DNA of 64,000 nucleotides from Roseateles depolymerans (GTDB taxonomy: Bacteria > Pseudomonadota > Gammaproteobacteria > Burkholderiales > Burkholderiaceae_C). The position numbers and the translations under genes are program-made. A model generated the notes under the pieces. That model did not search any database, was not told where the DNA came from, and saw only the letters and a list, made by a program, of their open reading frames with translations. Location: positions 1,245,694-1,309,693 of the forward strand of contig NZ_QUMT01000002.1 of the NCBI RefSeq assembly GCF_003387155.1, written 5' to 3'. Positions 26,634-61,563 of this stretch are shown here, piece by piece; positions within the stretch are counted from its first letter, which is position 1; each line of letters starts with the position of its first letter.

Positions 26634-26925
26634 CGTCCTGCGCTTGGGTCTCGAATAGCACCCGGGCTGCGCGACCCCACGGCACTGCGACTCTACGGCA
26701 CTGCGACGCAGCAACGCTGCGGCGGTGCGGCTTTGCTGCGGTATAGGGTTGCGGCTCTGGGCGCGGCCTATTTAGCGCATGACGGATGGACTGGGACTGC
26801 GAGGGGCAGATAGGTCTTGATGGGTGAATGCGTTGTGCATGGATTTGCTCGATGACGTCACCGAGGCTGGCAGCGAGTCTGCGAACCTGCGCGCTTGCTG
26901 TTGGTGGAGTGGGCAGGGTGTGTCG
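26634..26925. other. Non-coding spacer with short direct repeats
   Basis: No credible gene. It contains an imperfect tandem duplication around 26681-26711 (acggcactgcgac repeated) and leads into the structured element at 26926. Codon-like structure is absent on both strands. Confidence 0.55.
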
Positions 26926-27098
26926 CATCGAAGGCCGGGGGCCCCCTGTTCCCGGAAGTTAAGGAATGAATGACCGGCGGAGCCGGGCAGAAGGGACTGA
27001 GCTCGGACTCAAACAGTCCTGTGGACTGTTTGAGCCTAGCGAAGGCCAGGGCCTCTGGCCCTGGCATGGAGGGAACAGGGGGCCCCCGGTCTTCGATG
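26926..27098. repeat. Long inverted-repeat element A with three internal hairpins
   Basis: Arms of 28 nt (26926-26953 and 27071-27098) match at 27 positions; the one mismatch would be a G-U pair in RNA. The 117-nt interior begins GGAAGTTAAGGA and forms CCGGC-GGA-GCCGG (26974-26986), a 12-bp-plus stem at 27005-27019/27023-27036 (CTCAAACAGTCC core) and GCCAGGGCC-TCT-GGCCCTGGC (27045-27065). Shares arm ends (TTCCC/GGGAA), GGAAGT core and GGA-looped hairpin with 61413-61515, although the arms differ in sequence. Confidence 0.9.
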
Positions 27099-27477: not shown

Positions 27478-27978
27478 ATGATTGCCGTAGACAGCTCTGT
27501 CCTCATCGACCTCCTGGGCGACGCACCGGGCGCCGATGCGGCGGAAGCTGCGCTGCGTCTGGCGCTGTCCACCGGCCCTGTGGTGCTGTGTGACGTGGTG
27601 CTGTCCGAGGTGACGGCCGGCCTGGGCCACGGCTCTGACGTCATGGATGCACTGGAAGAGATGGGCCTGAGTTTCTCCCCCATCGACCAGCGCGCCGCCA
27701 TCCGTGCCGGCGAAATGCAGCGCAAGTTCAAACAGCGCCTGCTCCAGACGACCGCGCCGGCTCCCGCCCCCAAATCCGCATCCAAGGCCGCCGCCCGCTC
27801 CTCCGCCAGCACCCCTGCGGCGCCCTCCACCGACCTCGCCCCCAGCACCCGCGCCCTCGCCGACTTCCTCGTCGGCGCCCACGCCATGCTGCAGTGTGAC
27901 GGCCTCATCACCCGCGACCACGGATTTTTCCGGGATTATTTCAAGGGACTCAAAGTCATCGTGCCCCGTGCGCCCTGA
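27478..27978 (+). CDS. PIN-domain ribonuclease toxin (VapC-like) with Ala/Pro/Ser-rich insertion
   Basis: 166 residues, longer than the usual 125-140. PIN acidic residues are Asp5 (AVDSSVLID), Glu44 (LSEV), Asp129 (ADFLVGAHA) and Asp147 (LITRDHGFF), so the catalytic set is intact. Residues about 91-124 are an Ala/Pro/Ser/Lys-rich stretch without predicted structure, inserted between the FKQRLLQ helix and the RALADFLVGAHA helix that normally follow each other closely. Expected to cleave RNA when free of the antitoxin encoded 8 bp upstream. Lies just before acnB. Confidence 0.92.
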   Translation: MIAVDSSVLIDLLGDAPGADAAEAALRLALSTGPVVLCDVVLSEVTAGLGHGSDVMDALEEMGLSFSPIDQRAAIRAGEMQRKFKQRLLQTTAPAPAPKSASKAAARSSASTPAAPSTDLAPSTRALADFLVGAHAMLQCDGLITRDHGFFRDYFKGLKVIVPRAP

Positions 27979-61311: not shown

Positions 61312-61412
61312 CCGCGCAAAAAGCGCGCTCGACGAGCCCCTTTGACCAAGGGACCTCGCCCTCACCAAAAGCTCGGTGTCTGAACTTGCGCCTGGATCGA
61401 AGTCCTCGGTGG

Positions 61413-61515
61413 GGGGATCGGGAAGGCGGGGAGGCCTTTCCCGGAAGTAAGAGGAGGAGCCCGCGGAGCGGGCGGGGGACATGAAGGGAAAGGCCTCCCC
61501 GCCTTCCCGATCCCC
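61413..61515. repeat. Long inverted-repeat element B, perfect 30-bp arms
   Basis: 61413-61442 and 61486-61515 are exact complements over 30 nt. The 43-nt interior opens GGAAGTAAGAGGAGGA and holds GCCCGC-GGA-GCGGGC (61459-61473). The arm junction TTTCCC/GGGAAA and GGAAGT-AAG core plus GGA-looped hairpin are shared with element A (26926-27098), while the arms have a different sequence. No transposase nearby. Confidence 0.92.
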
Positions 61516-61563
61516 TGGCGCAGTCAAAGAACCTCAAGCCCCCCACAACAAACCCACCCAACC

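Follow-up and report, generated by a model that had tools for sequence, protein, structure and literature searches.

In the window (the whole stretch of 64,000 nucleotides of Roseateles depolymerans DNA analysed here), the hairpin that we call element B belongs to a dispersed family in which a strand-specific, conserved core is enclosed in a long stem, loci are occupied in one genome and empty in another, and the two arms of the stem change mostly in a mirrored fashion. Element B probably is a copy of a non-autonomous mobile intergenic element, the arms of which would be kept foldable by hairpin-templated copying, combined with selection on the core; that an enzyme moves it is what we infer.

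Element B lies on the + strand and is a perfect inverted repeat. Its left arm (positions 61413 to 61442) and right arm (61486 to 61515) are each 30 nt long, 100% complementary, and 43 nt apart. The core between them (61443 to 61485) consists of GGAAGTAAGAGGAGGA, an apical hairpin GCCCGC-GGA-GCGGGC (61459 to 61473), and GGGGGACATGAA, and covariation in the core pairs its A at 61446 with its T at 61482. Folded as single-stranded DNA, the element has a z score of −9.8 relative to shuffles, and the covariance model R1, trained on 21 copies, gives it 84.9 bits on the + strand and 26.4 bits on the − strand. A box CTCGGT (61405 to 61410) is found on its left flank and a box GGCGCAGTCAAAGAACC (61517 to 61533) on its right flank; forms similar to the latter adjoin other copies.

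Element A, also on the + strand, has arms of 28 nt (26926 to 26953 and 27071 to 27098) that are 96% complementary and separated by 117 nt, with a box GGTCTTGATGGG upstream (26813 to 26824). The original prediction had assigned the same core to both elements. Indeed, the junction TTCCC/GGAAGT, the small stem with a GGA loop, and the closing GGGAA are present in both, but element A is a long form: its core (26954 to 27070) is of the B type with about 68 more bases, which make up two additional hairpins before CATGGA. The pattern TTCCCGGAAGT(A/T)AAG proposed for the common core fits element A, but misses element B by two bases, since the latter reads GGAAGTAAGAGG. A chance match of the shared core is argued against by the fold and by the absence of matches to the pattern read backwards; with two mismatches allowed, 0.02 chance matches to TTCCCGGAAGT(A/T)AAG are expected. 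Among the loci examined, five long-form cores were found, including element A, in three genomes. At four loci (L074, L076, L181, and L243), the long form has a short form nearby in the opposite orientation; near element A, no such opposite-oriented short form was found in the window. Downstream of element A, positions 27478 to 27978 of the window are occupied by a gene with a PIN domain (Pfam PF01850), such as VapC-type toxin-antitoxin pairs have.

The family of at least two members that had been predicted turned out to be far larger. A first search of the own genome with a relaxed core pattern gave three more copies (two exact, one with two mismatches), the arms of which were confirmed, and a pattern of core plus 3′ core matched 3 of the 16 genomes of the genus, the own genome included. 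The core pattern read backwards, our control, had no match in the 16 genus genomes or in a scan of 399 genomes. A strict core pattern for the whole family matched only 5 of 399 genomes, compared to at least 130 of 299 with model R1 later. With R1 at E 0.01 and the best 150 first-look candidates per genome scored, every one of the 16 genus genomes had at least one match, with the following counts in five of them: the own genome (G000, at least 48), G010 (at least 45), G012 (at least 39), G015 (at least 22), and G009 (at least 11). From these we took a set of 97 copies (39, 30, 18, 9, and 1, respectively). Since an arm score of at least 13 was required and copies with badly broken arms were left out, this set is biased toward paired arms. 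In 20 carrier genomes, three of which are apparently identical to G002, G012, and G014 of the genus set, between at least 3 and at least 112 matches were found per genome (best 150 candidates each). In the own genome (contig C1, locus L170, 5899 to 6271), three copies follow one another in direct tandem, one every 146 bp.

Across the GTDB family, R1 at E 1e-4 matched at least 130 of 299 genomes and at least 74 of 141 genera (best 15 candidates per genome), and the core was present in all 20 strong loci inspected from 18 of these 130 genomes. Matches in a sample of the phylum were few (at least 6 of 249 genomes, best 18 candidates per genome); four, counting the own genome, were in the own GTDB family, the remaining two came from a single further family of the class, and three of the six are weak ones, among those counted by score alone. 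This result is taken as a specificity control for R1. In a scan of one genome per species, a core pattern blind to the arms gave 66 matches in 63 stretches. Paired arms were present at 60 of these, and one more was cut by the end of its stretch. The five matches without arms, in records titled Exiguobacterium, Alphaproteobacteria, Ignavibacteriales, Verrucomicrobia, and Bacteroidetes, look like chance. The titles of the remaining records name Roseateles, Rubrivivax, Ideonella, Schlegelella, Ramlibacter, other Burkholderiales, Rhodocyclales/Rhodocyclaceae, an uncultured beta proteobacterium, "Ca. Nitricoxidireducens" (a betaproteobacterium), and Pseudoxanthomonas. The three Pseudoxanthomonas records share one locus, the arms of which show flips from G-C to C-G. 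At least 120 viral stretches fit a loose core pattern, and none of the 80 listed reached E 0.1 with R1. One search of plasmids with element B revealed one copy, in Burkholderia anthina.

What is conserved in this family is the pairing of the arms, not their sequence. In the 97 copies, the arms are 27 to 28 bp long in 67 and perfectly Watson-Crick in 31; of 2,628 arm cells, 117 are G-T and 21 unpaired, and the cores measure about 41 to 51 nt. The arms had been called unrelated, and 89 different left arms among the 97 copies bear this out, but the arms of element B and of another copy in the own genome (L028/L034) are visibly related and differ by paired changes. In the training alignment of R1, a double-sided change was seen at 16 of 16 arm pairs with 99.7% of the cells paired, and none of 500 shuffles reached the observed covariation; the training rows were prefiltered to have no more than 4 mismatches over 16 positions of the arms, whereas the scan of one genome per species had no arm filter. 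The core covaries as well. The positions equivalent to 61446 and 61482 are A-T in 17, G-C in 18, and mixed in none of 35 R1 matches, which stem from 21 loci (20 of other genera and one plasmid), some sharing a genome. Furthermore, the variants of the two loop strands mostly co-occur, the commonest 5′ variant with two 3′ variants (34 and 23 times); this linkage may merely reflect a core that is inherited as one unit.

How the arms change can be read from copies that occupy the same locus in different species. We matched 30 such ortholog pairs via both flanks; they were chosen for alignable flanks and share members, and therefore not all are independent. Their arm positions comprise 642 unchanged, 104 Watson-Crick doubles, 37 single-sided changes, and 5 other doubles. 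The Watson-Crick doubles divide into 53 of the transition type and 51 of the transversion type, and the single-sided changes into 32 that leave a G-T pair and 5 that leave a mismatch. Between G000 and G010, 17 pairs give a divergence of 9.8% in the arms, 13.8% in the BLAST-aligned flanks, and 6.0% in the core (for the 16 of 17 pairs with equal core length), and a transition-to-transversion ratio of 0.85 for the flanks and 49:39 for the arms. Hence, the arms change at about 0.7 of the rate of the flanks, with a similar spectrum, and largely in a mirrored fashion: over 451 positions, 35 pair-restoring doubles were observed, compared to about 1.4 expected by an arithmetic estimate if both sides changed independently. 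At three or more loci (L260/L291, L283/L297, and element B compared to G009), the core type differs between species with the arms kept or related. Gene conversion from other copies could be a further source of change and could yield mirrored blocks, too.

The element B locus is flanked by genes for a 2OG-Fe dioxygenase and an ELFV dehydrogenase. Among the 16 genomes found, three have the element at this place and four have both genes adjacent without it, and comparison of the occupied and empty sites of this locus revealed no clear target duplication. The same MITE-like pattern, a locus that is filled in one genome but vacant in a relative, is seen in a plasmid operon. The copy of the B. anthina plasmid sits between the genes for 2-hydroxymuconic semialdehyde dehydrogenase and an alpha/beta hydrolase, which overlap at stop/start with no copy between them in plasmids of Achromobacter pestifer and Ideonella dechloratans. 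The B. anthina junction has 273 bp extra, the copy included, with TGA at both ends, and its right end reads AAGGACAAGACACATGA. These comparisons suggest insertion as the direction of change; the empty plasmid sites could instead be deletions. In "Ca. Nitricoxidireducens," a reversed partner is found 60 to 260 nt upstream in 25 of 29 copies, and for 23 of the 29 a ribosome-binding-like sequence and an ORF start lie no more than 220 nt downstream, according to a loose rule with ORFs of at least 60 residues. By our own count, 16 of the 29 have the typical form: GGA(G/A)...TGA or TAG, then one base and a start codon.

The flanks of the copies carry recurrent boxes. CTCGGT is found within 25 nt left of the arm in 42 of the 97 copies (control stretch at a distance of 300 bp, 0 of 97), and GCAGT left of 29 (1 in the control stretch); to the right, 34 copies have a GCAGT-type sequence (control, 5) and 23 an AAAGAA-type sequence (control, 3). 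In 25 of the 97, the copy is preceded by up to 600 nt, on its own strand, by a piece of GGTCTTGATGGGG, a box of the kind that element A has as GGTCTTGATGGG; the other three arrangements amount to 2 in total. The exact 13-mer GGTCTTGATGGGG occurs 26 times in eight genomes, 16 times near a copy among those listed (own genome, 7 of 8; G010, 5 of 7; G012, 2 of 5; G015, 2 of 5; G008, 0 of 1). Between this box and the hairpin, short tandem repeats of the GTGAGCC and GCAATAA types were seen at L188 (about 2180 to 2340) and in the left flank of L309. In the Roseateles group, 8 of the 97 copies overlap a predicted gene according to home-made ORF calls.

Dispersed hairpin repeats are already known in bacteria, and a comparison shows where this family differs. 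In Rfam 15, a search with element B at E up to 10 gave 29 matches, all short of the cut-off and for the most part to miRNA hairpin models; nine other loci, searched at E up to 0.05, gave a single miRNA model, on both strands of one place and below the cut-off. REPs are described as palindromes of 20 to 40 bp tagged with GTAG or CGTC. Like REPs and REPINs, the copies are short, dispersed intergenic palindromes that form inverted pairs, with a RAYT gene beside a copy in three genomes; their stem of mostly 27 to 28 bp is, however, of free sequence, their internal loop is conserved and purine rich, and the GTAG or CGTC tag, as given in the available part of the REP descriptions, is absent from the consensus. 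In ERIC, NEMIS/Correia, BOX, and RUP elements, the conserved part is the arm sequence, whereas in this family, likewise dispersed and intergenic, it is the loop that is conserved, and the arms vary freely. Integron attC sites have conserved RYYYAAC and GTTRRRY ends; by eye, no such ends were seen in the flanks listed for the copies. According to the consulted part of the report of Hot et al. (2011; PMC3110155), ERIC, NEMIS/Correia, BOX, and RUP are dispersed intergenic units often regarded as mobile, and the Beta-proteobacterial repeat element (BRE) is a G+C-rich, usually intergenic unit of 75 to 91 bp that is multicopy, in tandem at some loci, possibly mobile, and of unknown function. Its hosts include Bordetella, Polaromonas, Delftia, Acidovorax, and Azoarcus, and transcripts were reported from one BRE locus; a member would be recognised by more than 70% sequence identity with the Bordetella BRE. 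The original prediction recognised no known element in the family; compared by description, BRE may be the same family. However, that part of the description has no mention of covarying arms, an internal-loop core, or inverted pairs, and the arms-blind scan with its strict pattern revealed no record titled Bordetella, Polaromonas, Delftia, or Acidovorax. A conserved loop core within mirrored, free arms is not described in the literature searched.

Which protein could move such a unit? A REP-type element moved by a RAYT (the Y1 HUH transposase TnpA-REP), which recognises its hairpin as single-stranded DNA, comes to mind. Indeed, three copy-rich genomes (G000, G010, and G012) have a RAYT gene (Pfam Y1_Tnp) that is preceded, on the same strand and at no more than about 300 bp, by a copy, and copies occur in both orientations to genes and often as inverted pairs, like REPs. 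Y1_Tnp genes are present in all 16 genus genomes. However, the RAYT stands beside gltB in 15 of the 16 (with dgt as well in 14) at any copy number, and therefore the three RAYT-adjacent copies may go back to one old insertion. Within the fetched stretches, a copy was present at only 3 of 30 Y1 loci of the genus genomes and at 1 of 21 in a second set, the latter being one of the same three loci. Moreover, no Y1_Tnp was found in 8 of the 20 carrier genomes, one of them with at least 112 copies; several of these are metagenome-assembled and maybe incomplete, but isolates are also among them. The RAYT, not being constant across the 16 and 20 genomes, was therefore rejected as a constant mobiliser, and since it is kept whatever the copy number and Y1_Tnp was missing from those 8 carriers, we do not file the family under REP/RAYT; together with the consensus devoid of a REP tag, this makes a RAYT-moved element an unlikely explanation. 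At the dgt-RAYT-gltB locus of the own genome (contig C3, L188, 1135 to 1860), GGGGACAGA and TCTGTCCCC form a short inverted repeat around the RAYT gene; the copies of this gene that were inspected in other genomes show it too, one of them less clearly. A transposon enclosed by (−,+) pairs 1.3 to 3.7 kb apart was rejected as well: five genes from between or beside such pairs, run through Pfam, all belong to ordinary families (DAHP synthetase family, UDP-glucose dehydrogenase, periplasmic binding protein, amino acid kinase, and cation efflux). Nor did a recurrent neighbour gene emerge, with only 4 of 2,800 ORFs having relatives near copies in at least three other genomes; these encode three ABC transporter ATPases and one solute-binding protein, large families for which this is expected by chance. 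In sum, no constant transposase or autonomous partner was found in the genus and carrier genomes or among the neighbour genes.

The other explanation to be weighed is that the family is a structured RNA element, within an mRNA or as a small RNA, and that selection on the fold, by stepwise compensation alone, accounts for the paired arms. The strong covariation of the arms, the covarying pair within the internal loop, the co-varying loop strands, the three-hairpin long form, and the strand-specific core would all suit it, and so would the transcripts from the BRE locus (PMC3110155, in the part consulted), which count solely if BRE is the same family. A bias in orientation to the flanking genes is not seen, though, with 33 ++ and 27 −− among 80 copies for which both neighbours were called by home-made gene calls. 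Stepwise compensation through G-U is expected to favour transition-type doubles. Contrary to this, the transversion-type doubles at orthologous loci far outnumber the single mismatches (51 versus 5) and are about as frequent as the transition-type doubles. Since mirrored changes exceed single ones and both types of doubles are equally common, a copy mechanism is favoured for the arms; copying one arm from the other in one event would fit the ortholog changes better than stepwise compensation, and we regard an RNA element shaped by compensation alone as improbable. Counted against hairpin-templated copying are the 32 single changes that leave G-T, as stepwise selection on an RNA would. Template switching has been published to give such double, mirrored changes in RNA stems in one step (Monttinen and Löytynoja 2022; PMC8794818). 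The consulted part of that work concerns RNA genes, whereas here template switching would act on a dispersed repeat family. The original prediction had left the choice between selection for structure and a copy mechanism that regenerates the arms. The preserved pairing it described is borne out and the arm substitutions favour copying; beside such a mechanism for the arms, selection is still needed to explain the core.

In our model of a mobile element with hairpin-templated arms, a factor would recognise the folded core on one strand, as single-stranded DNA or RNA, and move the unit. The arms would need no fixed sequence, only the ability to pair, and, when the DNA is replicated or the unit moves, would be re-matched as one is copied from the other by template switching within the hairpin. 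The core would be held by selection and exchanged between copies via recombination. In some hosts, the unit may enter stop/start junctions of operons, where its right end, as read from the junction sequences, would provide a ribosome-binding site and thereby keep the downstream gene translated. More tentatively, it is imaginable that the element travels as a folded single strand, known through its noncanonical internal-loop core, has its arms re-synthesised, and enters stop/start junctions with its own ribosome-binding site.

The hairpin family is common, being present in at least 74 of the 141 genera of the sampled GTDB family, and is without an Rfam match. Its many orthologous copies are a natural record of hairpin arms changing together, by which stepwise selection and one templated event become directly testable against each other. 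They also are a warning that covariation by itself need not prove RNA function. Should the operon-friendly mode of insertion prove general, a mobile element would here be adapted in an unusual way to the gene order of bacteria. If the element does travel as a folded single strand, its identity would rest in the core and the shape and not in the arms, and its entry would not silence the next gene.
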